Of a stretch of DNA of 64,000 nucleotides, positions 50,725 through 60,830 are shown piece by piece (within the stretch, counting starts at the first letter, position 1; every line of letters starts with the position of its first letter). The notes under the pieces are model-generated. The model was given only the letters and a program-made list of their open reading frames with translations. It did no database searches and was not told the origin of the DNA. This DNA comes from Thermoleophilia bacterium SCSIO 60948 (GTDB taxonomy: Bacteria > Actinomycetota > Thermoleophilia > Solirubrobacterales > 70-9). The stretch spans positions 1,666,001 to 1,730,000 of the forward strand of contig CP053031.1 in NCBI GenBank assembly GCA_021496505.1, in the 5' to 3' direction. The translations under genes were made by a program, and so were the position numbers.

Positions 50725-51855
50725 TCAGCCGGTCGGCCGGAAGTCGATCCCGTCGATCGCGATTCCCTCGCCGTAGTCGGGCAGCGCGGAATCGATGATG
50801 AACGCGCCGCTGTTCGGGGCGAGGAAGGCGGACGCCGAGTCCTCGACCGTGGTCGACGCGTCGTCGAGACGCGGAATCAGGAAGGCCTGGCGGTAGTCGG
50901 CGCGGCACGCCGCCGGGAGCGTCAGCGGGGAGTCGCCCGTACCGCTCACGCGGCGTACGGCTCCGCGCAGGTGGACGACGCCCTCGAGGTCTCGGTAGCA
51001 CTGCGGAGTGGCGAAGTCCTCGCCGAACGCCTCCCAGCCGGTCTGCACGGTCACGTTCTGCCACGGGGCCGGGTCAACGAGCGAGGGGTTGGGATAGGTG
51101 CCTGAGAGCGCTCCACCCGCGGGACCGCTGGGGGCGCCGCCGCCTCCACCCTCACCGACGCCGATGCAGCTGGGCGAGCCGTTCTGGGAGACGCTCGCGA
51201 TCGCCTGTCCGGTCGGGCAGGCGGTGGCGATCCTGGCCTGGATCGCGCCGTAGTCGAGCTGGCTCTCGTCGATCTCGCCGGCGCCGATGACCCCGGCCGC
51301 GATCTGCGGGTTCGGATACGTCCCGGTCAGGTCTCCCCCGGCCTGGCCGCTGGCCCCGCCCGTGCCGGTGTCGACGCAGGATGCCGTGCCATCGGATCCG
51401 ACGCTCTCGATCGCCTGTCCATCCGCGCAACCGCTCGTGTCGATCCGCGCCTGGAGCGCGGTGAAGTCCAGGGTGGCCTCGTCGATCGCCGCCCCGGTCA
51501 CGGAACCGTCGGCGAGCTTGGTGGAGGTCACGGCCCCATTGGCCAGCTTGGTCGAGCCGATCGCGAAGTCCGCGATCTTCGAATCGGTCACGGAGCTCGT
51601 GCCGAGATCGACGTTCTTGACGTCGCCGTCACGGATGTCGATCGAACCGACCTGTCCGTCTCTGATCTGAGCCGAGCGAACCTGACCCTTGCCGATGTCG
51701 GCGGACTTCACCTGGCCGTTCTTGATGTCGCCCGAGTCGACCGAGTTCTTGCCCGGCAGCGCCTGGGCGACGCCGCCGGTCAGGATCAGGAAGAGAGCGA
51801 TGTATCCGACGATGTTTCCGCGCAGATGGGCGTGGATCTTCTGGCTCGAGCTCAC
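50725..51855 (-). CDS. Surface protein with decapeptide repeats, after the pilus operon
   Basis: 376 residues. One membrane segment (LRGNIVGYIALFLILTGGVA) is followed by ten-residue units from V39 to about L129, pattern V-x-S-x-x-I-x-x-G-x, with the hydrophobic residue at 39, 49, 59, 69, 79, 89, 99, 109, 119 and 129. Two copies of a G-x-L-x-GTYPNP motif follow near 180 and 255, as in phage tail-fibre-like proteins, and a C-terminal domain of about 100 residues. Likely a secreted or anchored fibrous protein; function unknown. It follows the PilV-like gene by 63 bp. Confidence 0.65.
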   Translation of the reverse strand: MSSSQKIHAHLRGNIVGYIALFLILTGGVAQALPGKNSVDSGDIKNGQVKSADIGKGQVRSAQIRDGQVGSIDIRDGDVKNVDLGTSSVTDSKIADFAIGSTKLANGAVTSTKLADGSVTGAAIDEATLDFTALQARIDTSGCADGQAIESVGSDGTASCVDTGTGGASGQAGGDLTGTYPNPQIAAGVIGAGEIDESQLDYGAIQARIATACPTGQAIASVSQNGSPSCIGVGEGGGGGAPSGPAGGALSGTYPNPSLVDPAPWQNVTVQTGWEAFGEDFATPQCYRDLEGVVHLRGAVRRVSGTGDSPLTLPAACRADYRQAFLIPRLDDASTTVEDSASAFLAPNSGAFIIDSALPDYGEGIAIDGIDFRPTG

Positions 51856-51918
51856 GTGGACCCATCGGCCGGCCCGCGGCGCCGCTTTAGCCCACTCGAC
51901 GGGGGTTCGATCCGCTGA

Positions 51919-55240: not shown

Positions 55241-56293
55241 TCAGCCCTTGACCCGCTCCTTGACCTTCTTGATCTGGTCGACGCGGAGCTCGAAGACTCG
55301 CTCGACCGGCTCATCCTCCGGCTGGTAGGTCAGGTTCATCGTCGACTGCGGGTCGAGGAACGCCCACTGGCAGTCGTCCGGGCTCGGGAAGCAGGACTGC
55401 TCGCCGCTGACCCGGGTGACGTCGGACGAGACGAGGAACGCGGCGCGTTTGCCGCTTTCGTCCGTGCCGATGAACGCCGCCGCGGGCGAGCTGTCGGACG
55501 GCAGCACCTGGAAGAGGTCGAGGTCGTTGCGCTGGGTCAGGGGCTGGCCCTGCTCTCCCACGGACACGCCGACCTGATAGCTGATCTGCTCGGTGATGTA
55601 GCGGATCTCCGGCTTGTCGTTGCCGCCGCTGTTCCCGCCGTTGTTGCCGCCCCCGTTGTTGCTCCCGCCGTCGTCGGTATCGGTGTCGGTACCCGTGTCC
55701 GGCGGAGCGACCGGCGCTCCGGGGTCGACCGGCGTGCCCGGGTCGACGATCCCGGGGTCCGTGAACGAACCGTCCGGGAGGGTGTCGGTGCCGAGATCGC
55801 TCGATCCGTCGTCGGTTACTGGGACGTCCTCGGAGACGGCGCCGTCGGTGGGCGCGTCGAGATTGACGGCCACGGGAGCGCTGAAGGGGTTCCGCGACTT
55901 GAGGCTCGCGAGGCGCTTCTCGTAATCGCGAACCCCGGTGCTGTCGACCAGGACCGCGGGCGCAACCGCGTCCGCGTCCGCAGCGACCGGCACGGCCGCC
56001 GGGAGAACGGGGTCCTCGTCCGGCCTGGCCAGCAGTAGCGGGACCGCGGCGAGGGCCACGATCAGAGCGATCGCCGGAATCAAGAGCCGGCGGTCGCGCA
56101 GATCGCGAATGAGGTCTGCGACGGGCGCGGGCACCCTCTCGCTGATCGGCGGGCCGCCGCGCTTCGGGGGTTTGGGTGCGCCACCGGCCGGGGCGACATT
56201 TGAAGCCTTCTCGCCCCCACCGCGGCGGAGCTTCGGCTTCGAGAACTTCGGCAGCTTGAGCTCGGGCCCCTTGTCGATGCGCGGCATCTTCAC
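55241..56293 (-). CDS. Membrane-anchored pilus assembly protein in the PilP position
   Basis: 350 residues. A basic cytoplasmic N-terminus of about 70 residues, one helix (LLIPAIALIVALAAVPLLLA), then a Pro/Asp/Gly/Asn-rich extracellular linker and a C-terminal beta-rich domain. Position after pilO is that of the lipoprotein PilP, but there is no lipobox and no obvious PilP similarity. No secretin is present for it to bind. Function inferred from position only. Confidence 0.6.
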   Translation of the reverse strand: MKMPRIDKGPELKLPKFSKPKLRRGGGEKASNVAPAGGAPKPPKRGGPPISERVPAPVADLIRDLRDRRLLIPAIALIVALAAVPLLLARPDEDPVLPAAVPVAADADAVAPAVLVDSTGVRDYEKRLASLKSRNPFSAPVAVNLDAPTDGAVSEDVPVTDDGSSDLGTDTLPDGSFTDPGIVDPGTPVDPGAPVAPPDTGTDTDTDDGGSNNGGGNNGGNSGGNDKPEIRYITEQISYQVGVSVGEQGQPLTQRNDLDLFQVLPSDSSPAAAFIGTDESGKRAAFLVSSDVTRVSGEQSCFPSPDDCQWAFLDPQSTMNLTYQPEDEPVERVFELRVDQIKKVKERVKG

Positions 56294-57105
56294 GGGGTCA
56301 CCGCCGCGGTCGGGGCGGGAGTCGCGGTCGCATCCGTGGTCGCCGGGGCCGTCGTCTCACCCGGGACCTCGACAGCCGGGCCGGCGCCTGTCGCCCCTGC
56401 CGTCGCGCCCTGGTCGGGCGGCGTCAGGTAGGAGGTGAGCGAGACGTTGGCCGAGAGCAGGTCCGAGGCTCCGCCCTCCTCGTTGAGGCTGAGCGAGAAA
56501 CCATCGATCGTGAGCAGCCGGCCTCGCGCCGCCTGCGAGCCGCGGGTGACGAGCTGGCCCTGGTTGTCAACGTGGACGAGGCCGTCGAGCCCGGCGAAGA
56601 ACTTCGAAAGCCCGAAGAAGTCGCCCTCGAAGGTCAGGTCGTAGGGCATCGTCATCAGTCCCGCCGGGCCCACCTGGGCACCGAGCGGCTGGAGCGCGAC
56701 CGACGACTCAGTCGCCGGAACGGTGCCGTCGGTCGGCGTCGGTGCCGGAGCCGCGGCGGTGGCCGATGCGTCACCCTCGGTCGTGAGCGTCAGGCTGAGG
56801 AAGTCGGTGCGTGCCCGCGACGAGATGCCCTCGACCTGGTCGATCAGGGAGGCGGTGTCGGAATCGGCCGGAACGGCTTTTCCGAGACGGACCATCGCGC
56901 TATAGGCCTCGTCGAAGTCGGCCTCGGCCGCCTCCGCCTGGGAAGCGAGCGCCTCCTGCTCGGAGACGCTCTGCTCGAGCGTGGCGATCTCGTCGTCGAG
57001 CTTCGCGACCTCGTCGCGTTTCGGAGCGATCACCAGGAACCAGACCCCTGCGAGCGCAGCGACGATCGCAAGGCCGAGGAGGATCATCTTGTCGGAGCTC
57101 TTCAC
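56290..57105 (-). CDS. pilO: Type IV pilus inner-membrane protein PilO
   Basis: 271 residues. One N-terminal helix (MILLGLAIVAALAGVWFLVI) is followed by a coiled coil rich in Glu/Ala and a ferredoxin-like domain, the usual PilO plan. The C-terminal 45 residues are Ala/Thr/Pro-rich. It overlaps pilN and the next gene by 4 bp each. PilM, PilN and PilO form the alignment complex of the pilus base. Confidence 0.85.
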   Translation of the reverse strand: MKSSDKMILLGLAIVAALAGVWFLVIAPKRDEVAKLDDEIATLEQSVSEQEALASQAEAAEADFDEAYSAMVRLGKAVPADSDTASLIDQVEGISSRARTDFLSLTLTTEGDASATAAAPAPTPTDGTVPATESSVALQPLGAQVGPAGLMTMPYDLTFEGDFFGLSKFFAGLDGLVHVDNQGQLVTRGSQAARGRLLTIDGFSLSLNEEGGASDLLSANVSLTSYLTPPDQGATAGATGAGPAVEVPGETTAPATTDATATPAPTAAVTP

Positions 57106-57884
57106 GGTGCCGCCTCCCCGCTGACGGGCTCGGCCTGGGTGGGCGCGGCCTCGGTGGTCTCACCCTCGGCCGGGGCGGGCTCGGCCGGCGCCGCTGCGGT
57201 CGGGTCGGTCGTCCCCGTCGGCGGAACCGGGGCGGCGTCGAACGCGACGACCGCGGTGAAGGCCGTCGCCGTCGGATCAGCGGCGCAGCCGCCGGAACCG
57301 CCGGAGCCCGTGGACTCCGCGGTATCGCTCGACCCAGGCTTGGATGTGGTGTCCACCGCGACTCGTGTGACACCGTCGATCAGCTCGAGATCGCTGATGT
57401 ACGCGGCCACGGTCCGCTGACTCGCCGCGCAGCCGGCCATCTCGAGCGCCGGGCCGGGGATCGACGCCCGCAGCGGGTTCGCGGTCTCACCCTCGACGGC
57501 GGCAGCCCCGCTCGCGGATCCGGTCAGACCGGTCAGCCAGACGTCACTCGGTGTGACCAGTCCAAGCTCATTCATCACCCGCGACCAGTCGAAACGGCTC
57601 TGGGCGAGACTGGAGATCGTGGCTTCGCGTGAGGTCTTGAGGGCCGCGAACTCGGCGTATGGCGCAAGCGCCTCTGCGCGCGCCCGAGCGTTGGCTTCTC
57701 GAGCCTCGAGGCTCGCGATCTCGTCCTCGCGCTCACCGACGGCGTTGTTCGTCGTAACGAGCAACGTGACGAGGCCGAGAGCAAGGACCAGCGCACCGAC
57801 GATGATGTACGGCGCGATTCCCGTGCGGCTGGGACCGGAGGTCCCGCGGCGCTCCTCGGGCGGAAGAAGATTGACCGGACGCAC
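57102..57884 (-). CDS. pilN: Type IV pilus inner-membrane protein PilN
   Basis: 260 residues. The N-terminal VNLLPPEER is the conserved PilN motif that docks into PilM. A single helix (YIIVGALVLALGLVTLLVTT) and coiled coil follow, then a domain with WSRVMNELGLVTPSDVWLTG. The C-terminal 50 residues are Ala/Pro/Thr/Glu-rich. It starts 3 bp after the pilM stop. Confidence 0.9.
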   Translation of the reverse strand: MRPVNLLPPEERRGTSGPSRTGIAPYIIVGALVLALGLVTLLVTTNNAVGEREDEIASLEAREANARARAEALAPYAEFAALKTSREATISSLAQSRFDWSRVMNELGLVTPSDVWLTGLTGSASGAAAVEGETANPLRASIPGPALEMAGCAASQRTVAAYISDLELIDGVTRVAVDTTSKPGSSDTAESTGSGGSGGCAADPTATAFTAVVAFDAAPVPPTGTTDPTAAAPAEPAPAEGETTEAAPTQAEPVSGEAAP

Positions 57885-57887
57885 GAC

Positions 57888-59075
57888 CTACTCCTCGAGC
57901 CCGAGTCCGAAGGGAACGGTCAGGCGCGCCGCCTCGTAGGGATCGATGTCGCGCATCGGCGCCGGCGTCGCCGCTCGGAACGCGAGTCCAGTCTCACGCT
58001 CAAGGCGCGTGACCAGACCCTCGATCGCAATACCCGGACCGCAGGCGACGACCTCGTCGACCATCACCGCGCCGTCCTGGGCACCGTAGTAGTCGAGCGA
58101 CATCCGGATCTCCTCGGCGAGGCGAGTCGCGCCCTCGTCGAGCGCCGCGCGCGCGGCCATCACGTTCTCCGGGTCGCCTTCGAGGACGTCGATCGGCTGA
58201 TCGAGCCCGACGTAGGCGAGCCACTGGCGCGCATGATCGAGGCGCAGCTCGCGTGCCTCGGCGAGGCGCTGTGCGATGCCCTCGATGCTGGCCGGCGCGA
58301 CGCGCGTGAACCTGCAGCGCGTACCGGTGGCGACCGCGAGGTTGGTCACGTCGCCGAGGTGGAAGTAGAGAACCGTTCGCTCGGGCGAGGAAGCACCGTT
58401 GGTCTCCGGCTGCCCTGGAAGTGCTCCCGAGCGCTCGAGCTCGATTCGCTCCTCGTAGGACAGCGTCGAAGGGTCGAACGCCGGATCGATCACCGAGGTC
58501 TCGGTCGTCGCCGGTCCCGTCTCGCTCGCGAGCGCACGAATCATCGCGAAGGCCGAGTGGTCGATCCCGACCGGCCGCAGCCCGGCGGTGCGAAGAGCGG
58601 CGACGACTCCGGTGATCATGTCCCGGCGCGCGGCCACGGCCACGACCTCGAGGCCTCCACCCTGCTCTTCGGGCACGGCGCCGGTGACCTGCCAGTCGAG
58701 AACGGAGTGCTCGAGCGGCATCGGGACCTGGTCGGCGGCCTGGAAGCGCACGGCGGCCTCTAGCTCGTCCTCCGGCAGTGGCGGCACCCGCAGTGTCCGG
58801 ACGGCGATCCGCTGGTTGGCGAGCCCGAGCCGGACCTCGCGCGGAAGCTTGTGGGTCGCCCAGACCTCCTTGAGACGCTCGCCGAGCGCGGCCGGATCGA
58901 TCACCTCGCCGTCAGAGAACAGCCCACTCTCGATCGGCTCGATCGCGCGACGGATCAGATCCGTGCTGCCGTTGACGCGCAGCTCGGCGGCGCCGACGCT
59001 GTTCGAGTCGATCTCGAGGCCGACGACCGTCTTGGCCTTCGACTTCGAGCTGGGCTTTCGGGAGCTGATCTTCAT
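57888..59075 (-). CDS. pilM: Type IV pilus assembly ATPase-like protein PilM
   Basis: 395 residues of the actin-like ATPase fold: VVGLEIDSNSVGAAELRV at the N-terminus, VRLGLANQRIAVRTLRVP, then FRAATPAPMRD near the end. PilM binds PilN on the cytoplasmic face. Its start is 87 bp after the pilD stop. Confidence 0.92.
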   Translation of the reverse strand: MKISSRKPSSKSKAKTVVGLEIDSNSVGAAELRVNGSTDLIRRAIEPIESGLFSDGEVIDPAALGERLKEVWATHKLPREVRLGLANQRIAVRTLRVPPLPEDELEAAVRFQAADQVPMPLEHSVLDWQVTGAVPEEQGGGLEVVAVAARRDMITGVVAALRTAGLRPVGIDHSAFAMIRALASETGPATTETSVIDPAFDPSTLSYEERIELERSGALPGQPETNGASSPERTVLYFHLGDVTNLAVATGTRCRFTRVAPASIEGIAQRLAEARELRLDHARQWLAYVGLDQPIDVLEGDPENVMAARAALDEGATRLAEEIRMSLDYYGAQDGAVMVDEVVACGPGIAIEGLVTRLERETGLAFRAATPAPMRDIDPYEAARLTVPFGLGLEE

Positions 59076-59162: not shown

Positions 59163-59921
59163 CTAGAGGAAGCGGGTCGCGTACCAGTCGACGATCTCGG
59201 GCCCGAACCAGAGGCCGACGATGCCGCCGAGGGCAAGGAACGGACCGAAGGGAACGGTCATCTTCCGGGCGCTCTGGCCGTGGCGCGCGAAGAGCGCCGC
59301 TCCGGCGAGCGAGCCGGCGAGAAGACCGACCAGGACCGCCGGCGCGACGGAGGCGCCCAGGTAGAGACCCATCATCCCGACGAGCTTCGCGTCGCCCATT
59401 CCCATGCCGCGCGGATGGGCCATCGCGATCACGAACAGGAGGCCGCCGGCGATCGCAGCGGCGAGCACCCGGTCAGGCAGCAGCTCGGGTGCCCCGAGCG
59501 CCAGTCCGACGAGCGCCACCACAGAGCCCGCGAGGACGATCTTGTTCGGGATGATCCGTAGGTCGAGGTCGGTGAGAGTCACCGCTACGAGCAACGTGCA
59601 GAGCACGAGACCGAGCCCTAGCGCGAGAAGGTCGTCGTCGCCGAGCGCGAGGTAGGTCCCGACGTAGAGCAGGGCGAGCCCGAGCTCCGTAAGCGGATAT
59701 CGAACGGCGATCGGCTCGGCGCAATTGCGGCAGCGGCCTCCGAGGAGCAGCCAGGAGAGCAGCGGAACGTTGTCGTGCGCGCGGATCGGCGCCGAGCAGC
59801 CCGGACACTCGGACCTCGCGCTAACCCAGTTCTCGTCGCGGGGCAGCCGATGTGCAAGCGCCGTGACGAAGCTGCCGAGGGCGAGGCCGAGGGGGAAGAG
59901 AATGAGGGCGGGCAAGAGCAT
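59163..59921 (-). CDS. pilD: Prepilin peptidase / N-methyltransferase
   Basis: 252 residues. The N-terminal zinc module has C39, C42, C64 and C67 (CPGC and CRNC). The two catalytic aspartates lie in DLDLRIIPNK and GMGDAKLVG. About eight membrane helices. It cleaves and methylates the pilins encoded around it (the pilA-, PilV- and PilW-type signals). Having its own copy in the operon suggests a self-contained pilus system. Confidence 0.94.
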   Translation of the reverse strand: MLLPALILFPLGLALGSFVTALAHRLPRDENWVSARSECPGCSAPIRAHDNVPLLSWLLLGGRCRNCAEPIAVRYPLTELGLALLYVGTYLALGDDDLLALGLGLVLCTLLVAVTLTDLDLRIIPNKIVLAGSVVALVGLALGAPELLPDRVLAAAIAGGLLFVIAMAHPRGMGMGDAKLVGMMGLYLGASVAPAVLVGLLAGSLAGAALFARHGQSARKMTVPFGPFLALGGIVGLWFGPEIVDWYATRFL

Positions 59922-60080: not shown

Positions 60081-60518
60081 TCAGCCCCAGTCGCCCCCGG
60101 TCGGGCAACCGCCGCCGGCCGGTGTACAGGTGTAGGTCAGGGTTCCCGCGTCGTTCTTGATGCTGAAGTCCGTCGCCGTCGTCTCCGCCTCGACGGTGAC
60201 CTCGTAGGTGTCCGCATCCGTCACGGTCGGCTCAGAGAAGCGCGTGCCGGCATCGCTGAGCGACGGCTCGATCGCGACCAGCTTCGCCTTCGTGGCTCCG
60301 GTGTAGGAACCGTTGTTGTCGGTCGCATAGGTCTCCATGGCCGTCTGGGCCGTGCGGACCTGCTCCTTGGCGTCGGCGTCGTTGGCCTTGTCGCGCTGGT
60401 TGAAGAAGGACGGGATGGCGATCGCGGCGAGCAGACCGATGATCAGCATCACGACCAGGAGCTCGATCAGGGTGAAACCGGACTCACCCTGGGCGCGCTC
60501 ACGGAGCTTGTTGAGCAT
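60081..60518 (-). CDS. pilA: Type IVa major pilin
   Basis: 145 residues. The signal MLNKLRERAQGESG14 precedes the mature FTLIELLVVMLIIGLLAAIA with Glu5, the classical type IVa pilin helix. The C-terminal domain has a cysteine pair (CTPAGGGC) that closes a D-loop-like region. The strong terminator after it and the elaborate leader before it fit the main structural subunit. Confidence 0.95.
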   Translation of the reverse strand: MLNKLRERAQGESGFTLIELLVVMLIIGLLAAIAIPSFFNQRDKANDADAKEQVRTAQTAMETYATDNNGSYTGATKAKLVAIEPSLSDAGTRFSEPTVTDADTYEVTVEAETTATDFSIKNDAGTLTYTCTPAGGGCPTGGDWG

Positions 60519-60519
60519 T

Positions 60520-60536
60520 TGATCCTCCTTGGATCA
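60520..60536 (-). promoter_or_regulatory. Hairpin holding the pilA Shine-Dalgarno
   Basis: On the minus strand TGATCC-AAGGA-GGATCA forms a 6-bp stem with the Shine-Dalgarno AAGGAGG split between loop and stem, one base before the pilA ATG. Opening or closing it would change translation. Confidence 0.55.
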
Positions 60537-60580
60537 TCTGTGAACGCCAGAGCCCCCGTGTGCCATTCGGTGGTCCGTGA

Positions 60581-60675
60581 CCCCAGTCGGTAACCGGCTG
60601 ACTCACGAGTGCTTCCCGGGAGTCCCTTGGTTTTGCGCCCCCGTCTCACGACGGGTTTGCCTTTCTCACCTGGGC
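60581..60675 (-). ncRNA. GEMM-I (cyclic di-GMP class I) riboswitch in the pilA leader
   Basis: On the minus strand the order AGGCAAACC (60662-60654), P2 hairpin CCCGTC-GTGA-GACGGG with a GNRA loop (60655-60640), GGGCGCAAAACC (60640-60629), P3 stem GACTC/GAGTC and GGTTACCGA (60595-60587) matches the GEMM-I consensus in sequence and spacing. P1 is CCCAG/CTGGG. It starts about 45 bases downstream of the promoter's -35-like element and ends 62 bases before the pilA ATG. Whether the ligand is c-di-GMP or cGAMP cannot be settled by eye. Confidence 0.85.
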
Positions 60676-60700
60676 GTCTGGCTTTTGTTTCCGGTTCGCC

Positions 60701-60727
60701 TATCGGGACCTGACCCCAACCCCTTTA
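60701..60727 (-). promoter_or_regulatory. Sigma-28 (FliA/WhiG)-like promoter of pilA
   Basis: Minus-strand TAAA (60727-60724), 17 bases, then CCGATA (60706-60701). The sigma-28 consensus is TAAA-N16-CCGATA, so the spacing is one base long. Transcription would begin around 60690-60695, just before the riboswitch. Confidence 0.45.
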
Positions 60728-60753
60728 GGCGACTGGGGTGAACATTCGTCCAG

Positions 60754-60773
60754 CCTGGGGGCCAGCCCCCAGG
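60754..60773. terminator. GC hairpin between divergent pilA leader and the next gene
   Basis: CCTGGGGG-CCAG-CCCCCAGG, a perfect 8-bp stem, in the 312-bp gap between pilA and the gene at 60831. No T tract. It may insulate the two divergent units or be an operator; function unassigned. Confidence 0.3.
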
Positions 60774-60830
60774 TCACCTGGGGTGAGTGCCACCGGGGAC
60801 CGAGCGCATACCGCTCTACGATGCGAAGTG

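Follow-up and report, generated by a model that had tools for sequence, protein, structure and literature searches.

The window that we analysed, 64,000 nucleotides of the Thermoleophilia bacterium SCSIO 60948 genome (3.42 Mb in a single contig), carries a type IV pilus cluster on its minus strand. The cluster has the order pilA-pilD-pilMNO, with pilA as its first gene (open reading frame start at 60518), and a second protein with a prepilin motif is encoded farther downstream than PilO. The features of the pilA leader and of the cluster are, in the direction of transcription:

60700–60727, minus strand: candidate WhiG/sigma-28-type promoter (−35 TAAA at 60727–60724, 16-nt spacer, −10 CCCGATAG at 60707–60700)
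60672–60682, minus strand: 5' arm of a predicted outer helix P0, GCCAGACGCCC (complementarity test; RNAalifold pairs 35–39/179–183; hairpin in aptamer-less relatives)
60586–60671, minus strand: c-di-GMP-I (GEMM-I) riboswitch aptamer (RF01051, 60.7 bits; RF03167, 57.4 bits)
60582–60585, minus strand: 3' strand of a predicted P1 extension, UGGG, pairing with CCCA at 60674–60671 (consensus fold; partner-swap test)
60546–60557, minus strand: 3' arm of P0, GGGGGCUCUGGC (consensus fold; complementarity test)
60520–60536, minus strand: predicted Shine-Dalgarno hairpin UGAUCC-AAGGA-GGAUCA, with the Shine-Dalgarno core mostly in the loop (complementarity test)
60081–60518, minus strand: pilA, type IV pilin of 145 aa (PF07963, the prepilin methylation motif, 31.4 bits; TIGR02532)
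59163–59921, minus strand: prepilin peptidase, PilD-like (PF06750, PF01478)
56290–59075, minus strand: pilM, pilN and pilO (PF11104, PF05137, PF04350)
51864–51889, minus strand: second match to the WhiG-type promoter pattern, at the end of the pilus cluster and before a 376-aa open reading frame (50725–51855)

The aptamer and its ligand

A sequence-only reading of this DNA had proposed a GEMM-I riboswitch on the minus strand upstream of pilA, at 60581–60675, with all conserved blocks in order and a GNRA-capped P2 hairpin, in an actinobacterium. Each of these points is borne out; the promoter, P0 and the Shine-Dalgarno hairpin listed above go beyond that reading. Scanning the whole window with cmscan and Rfam 15 at curated thresholds returns three matches, namely two tRNAs and a c-di-GMP-I aptamer that lies inside the proposed span. 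The RF01051 match is complete, covering model positions 1–87 with an E-value of 2.2e-9 and a score well above the gathering cut-off of 35 bits. The conserved blocks follow one another as AAAGGCAAAC, the hairpin CCCGUC-GUGA-GACGGG, GCGCAAA and the 3' P1 strand UUACC; the GUGA tetraloop of P2 (60649–60646) is a GNRA loop, and the host belongs to the class Thermoleophilia. In a search of the whole genome with RF01051 the E-value is 2.7e-11, and aptamers of this family recur before pilin genes in related genomes; the pilA aptamer is more than a chance match. By class, the element is almost certainly a GEMM-I c-di-GMP aptamer. It ends 67 nt before the pilA ATG, and we infer that it may affect pilA expression.

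A scan restricted to 60480–60800 returns the GGC variant family RF03167 in place of RF01051, at a score slightly below its own cut-off of 59 bits. Several aptamers of relatives exceed that cut-off.

The aptamer is very improbably a sensor of 3',3'-cGAMP (GEMM-Ib) rather than of c-di-GMP. The GEMM-I class does include cGAMP-type variants, and the change from G to A occurs in three aptamers of another Thermoleophilia family (L099, L114 and L135 in family f9), which show the GEMM-Ib pattern AAAAGCAAAC and whose next gene is not a pilin gene. The window copy, however, carries G within AAAGGC at the specificity position of the RF01051 alignment, where we take G to denote the c-di-GMP type and A the cGAMP type. 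The pilus precedents given in the earlier reading fare less well: GEMM-I examples in Geobacter are mainly of the cGAMP type. The Clostridium example, the switch upstream of C. difficile pilA1, is of class II (PMC6200980).

A second, weaker RF01051 copy in the genome (G000:C1:1382055, 48.5 bits) is located directly upstream of a gene whose product matches a polysaccharide lyase and begins with a signal-peptide-like stretch. Across the class, the c-di-GMP-I family is found in 118 of 299 Thermoleophilia genomes, and in 29 of a set of 61 comprising our genome and 60 relatives. As judged from the sequences, Thermoleophilia aptamers appear often to stand before a pilin gene: a simple motif test places a pilin-type gene next downstream at 52 of 181 aptamer loci, a few of which (such as L160) are doubtful.

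A candidate WhiG-type promoter upstream of the aptamer

The flagellar/WhiG promoter has been defined as TAAA followed by GCCGATAA, with a search rule of at most two mismatches in total and at most 200 bp from the start codon (PMC8325347). Our candidate has an exact TAAA and a −10 box that agrees with the consensus at 6 of 8 bases and lies ~182 nt upstream of the pilA ATG. A scan for sigma-70 promoters found none. The window has two matches to TAAAN{15,17}CCGAT, against 0.04 expected, and both (60702–60727 and 51864–51889) are inside the pilus cluster. The second abuts the predicted start of the 376-aa open reading frame, which has no Pfam match; this placement would fit a leaderless transcript or a later start.

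By eye, TAAA-N15/16-NCCGAT is common upstream in pilA leaders. Among pilin-linked aptamers, 21 of 52 have the strict pattern in the 120 nt upstream of them; among the other aptamers the count is 17 of 129, and among background windows it is 7 of 2164 (p 6e-31 for the pilin-linked aptamers and 5e-17 for the others). The loci are not independent, and these p-values are descriptive only, because the pattern was picked after some of the leaders had been viewed. The spacer is 16 nt in 15 cases and 15 nt in 5. Within the order, 15 of 29 pilA loci have a strict promoter match, and many pilA loci are without one.

A collection-wide search for the promoter together with the aptamer gave at least 120 matches, chance ones included, and was not used for counts; of the 120 matches listed, 46 passed a simple check for the remainder of the aptamer, and a few of these look wrong by eye. 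Four Rubrobacter records among the matches listed (L250, L258, L272 and L281) have the promoter-plus-aptamer pair; in two of them, L258 and L281, P1 is closely followed by the start codon of a signal-peptide-like protein. Two further listed matches from Actinomycetota (L260 and L269) have the pair before pilins, with a terminator-like hairpin and T run 3' of the aptamer, an expression platform that, from its sequence, looks different from that of the window pilA leader. Sigma-28-type promoters with GEMM-like aptamers are also found, among the matches listed, in records from Armatimonadota and Deltaproteobacteria (L247, L248, L294, L312, L320, L324, L259 and L325), where the next genes encode short MKIS/MQIS proteins or are flagellar-type genes (PF00460 for L259). 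The short proteins are FlgM-like by eye; a Pfam search gave no confirmation.

WhiG, RsiG and c-di-GMP signalling

The genome encodes both WhiG and RsiG. Its best FliA/WhiG protein scores 348 bits, against a WhiG equivalog cut-off of 343 (NF004935), and aligns with Streptomyces WhiG (6PFJ), retaining the K-X3-GR residues by which WhiG contacts c-di-GMP (PMC8325347). RsiG, encoded at G000:C1:1600662, has the single motif ERETSYRRRTLHGKID, of the form E(X)3S(X)2R(X)3H(X)3D, matches PF22802 with 61.4 bits and has PDB relatives 7LQ2–7LQ4. The query for RsiG comprised three helix sequences, one of them a hand-written consensus that retrieved the solved RsiG structures, and the resulting match was checked by Pfam and PDB. 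The genome search found no flagellin and 23 GGDEF domains.

RsiG is a c-di-GMP-dependent anti-sigma factor, and WhiG–RsiG is reported to control type IV pilus genes in Rubrobacter (PMC8325347). Across the 61 genomes, which are related and hence not independent, WhiG and RsiG co-occur (p 1e-7), and each is present in 27 of 29 riboswitch-bearing genomes versus 19 of 32 others (p 0.003 for either protein). At the level of genera, WhiG is found in 19 of 19 with the riboswitch and 6 of 9 without (p 0.026).

For Thermoleophilia, only the single-motif form of RsiG has been reported (PMC8325347). Five RsiG open reading frames from family f4 of the same order (L222, L229, L237, L238 and L239) contain the full motif twice within a single open frame, which looks like a tandem duplication.

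An outer helix and a Shine-Dalgarno hairpin

Outside the aptamer, the leader contains conserved pairing. For 14 leaders of the family, RNAalifold predicts P1, its extension and an outer helix, GCCAG/CUGGC, which is P0. The linker aligns badly across the order, so that the consensus of 26 leaders retains the aptamer only, and we therefore used an alignment-free test on 23 leaders, comparing how each 5' arm pairs with the 3' arm of the same leader and with the 3' arms of other species (5000 permutations). For P0, own pairs are more stable than swapped ones (−13.8 versus −11.7 kcal/mol, z −4.1, 0 of 5000 permutations), as they are for the Shine-Dalgarno hairpin (−5.6 versus −3.2 kcal/mol, z −6.3, 0 of 5000). 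The P0 helix that encloses the aptamer and the Shine-Dalgarno hairpin covary. The P1 extension, which on its 5' side overlaps outer P0, gives a partner-swap p of 0.015. A local anti-P1 hairpin, plausible by eye as a switch partner, found no support in the same kind of test (p 0.75).

The Shine-Dalgarno hairpin has a loop, AAGGA, that places GGA as in a CsrA site, and the genome has csrA (82.5 bits), so that CsrA rather than the aptamer might set pilA translation. We consider this quite improbable: csrA is not enriched with the riboswitch, and it is absent from 11 of 29 riboswitch-bearing genomes, some of which have the Shine-Dalgarno hairpin and good assemblies. We rejected CsrA control of the hairpin, csrA having no link to the riboswitch across relatives, and also a weak RsmV match of the hairpin (E 0.2, far under the cut-off).

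Relatives that keep the hairpin and lack the aptamer

Relatives of pilA are found in 10 of 22 searched genomes without a riboswitch match, and at the eight aptamer-less pilA loci that we examined RF01051 gave no match even at E 1. Two of them, G002 (genus g2) and G012 (genus g12), were aligned with riboswitch-bearing members of their own genus. In both, the coding start is conserved and the aptamer is absent between the two P0 arms, which are kept as a plain hairpin; of the two, only G002 has a clear WhiG-type promoter. P0-like arms are also present in G046 and G047, and are less clear in G031. Since the arms are kept while the aptamer is missing, the aptamer looks like a separable insert in the leader hairpin. 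Its aptamer-less sister species offer natural controls, in which the leader hairpin is retained and the sensor is absent.

How c-di-GMP might act on pilA

Taking the WhiG-type promoter, WhiG/RsiG and the aptamer together, we infer that c-di-GMP may control pilA twice, once through the sigma factor and once through the leader RNA. At high c-di-GMP, WhiG would be held in the RsiG complex, so that pilA would be subject to both layers. Because one 5' strand serves both the P1 extension and the outer half of P0, ligand binding is expected to favour the former over the latter: c-di-GMP would stabilize P1 with its extension at the cost of outer P0. This shift would alter pilA expression downstream of initiation, through either translation or the mRNA. 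Overall, the pilA operon probably has a WhiG-type promoter and, in its 5' UTR, a c-di-GMP-I riboswitch, giving two c-di-GMP layers of which the second changes pilA expression post-initiation.

The direction of control would be somewhat more likely OFF at high c-di-GMP in both layers. By analogy, we slightly favour OFF: the C. difficile class I switches that respond are OFF switches (PMC6200980), the RsiG–WhiG layer is repressive when c-di-GMP is high, and an aptamer near a start codon can sequester the Shine-Dalgarno sequence by extending P1. In such start-proximal aptamers the extended P1 can bury the Shine-Dalgarno sequence (own versus other, p 0.005). In 26 of 50 of them, including our genome's second copy, at least 75% of that sequence is paired; this modelling suggests that their genes may be under OFF switches. 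For pilA itself, accessibility of the Shine-Dalgarno sequence is alike in the aptamer-forced and free folding ensembles (means 0.50 and 0.52). Direct sequestration by the aptamer state of the pilA leader is thus unsupported, and folding of this leader gives no direction of control.

That unchanged accessibility would fit control through a Rho-dependent stop of elongation or through mRNA decay instead of translation, in either direction. We rate this as unlikely, yet a serious contender. The 5'-proximal P0 hairpin of the aptamer-less relatives could protect an mRNA, and a terminator-like hairpin with a T run follows the aptamer at the two pilin loci L260 and L269. In the window, by contrast, the leader region has no intrinsic terminator on the minus strand; the sole match is on the plus strand, within the aptamer.

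An ON riboswitch beneath a repressive RsiG–WhiG layer is unlikely. It would yield a band-pass, with pilA expressed only at intermediate c-di-GMP, because GEMM-I aptamers, which bind c-di-GMP at about nanomolar concentrations, do so far more tightly than RsiG–WhiG. The thresholds of the two layers can thus differ, RsiG–WhiG mixtures binding a c-di-GMP probe at 0.9–1.7 µM (PMC8325347), and c-di-GMP induces C. difficile pilA1, albeit via a class II switch (PMC6200980). However, the tested C. difficile class I switches are OFF (PMC6200980), and the architecture of the pilA leader reveals no ON platform.

Comparison with known systems

Signalling by c-di-GMP in non-filamentous actinobacteria has been little studied. 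Here, one gene appears to be the meeting point of a riboswitch and the sigma/anti-sigma switch of Streptomyces and Rubrobacter; this makes pilA a clean test case for why cells would read one signal twice. Tentatively, we propose that a Thermoleophilia pilin is under two-level control by c-di-GMP, with an RsiG–WhiG layer in the micromolar range and a riboswitch in the nanomolar range, and that the riboswitch is a removable insert at the apex of a conserved leader hairpin, with repeated gain or loss within genera. In the open-licence full-text papers searched we found neither a WhiG-type promoter with RsiG and a class I aptamer on a pilin gene, nor an aptamer as a module within a leader hairpin.

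The aptamer itself resembles the families RF01051 and RF03167 in all conserved blocks, in the GNRA loop and in the specificity G, and it scores above the RF01051 cut-off. It differs in falling below the RF03167 cut-off, in an outer helix P0 that neither model includes and in having no intrinsic terminator.

To our knowledge, the promoter-level control of V. cholerae gbpA and tfoY does not run via a WhiG/RsiG switch, and neither is a pilin gene. For each of the two, c-di-GMP is reported to work at two points on one gene, the promoter and a class I riboswitch (Vc1/Vc2; PMC6200980), as proposed here for pilA. C. difficile pilA1, with Cdi-2-4, also has a c-di-GMP riboswitch upstream of a major type IV pilin, but that aptamer is of class II and turns the gene ON by transcription read-through (PMC6200980).

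With the reported WhiG–RsiG system (PMC8325347), our genome shares WhiG, a single-motif RsiG and candidate WhiG-type promoters in the pilus cluster. Riboswitches go unmentioned in the text of that paper, whereas here the pilA leader adds a c-di-GMP aptamer.
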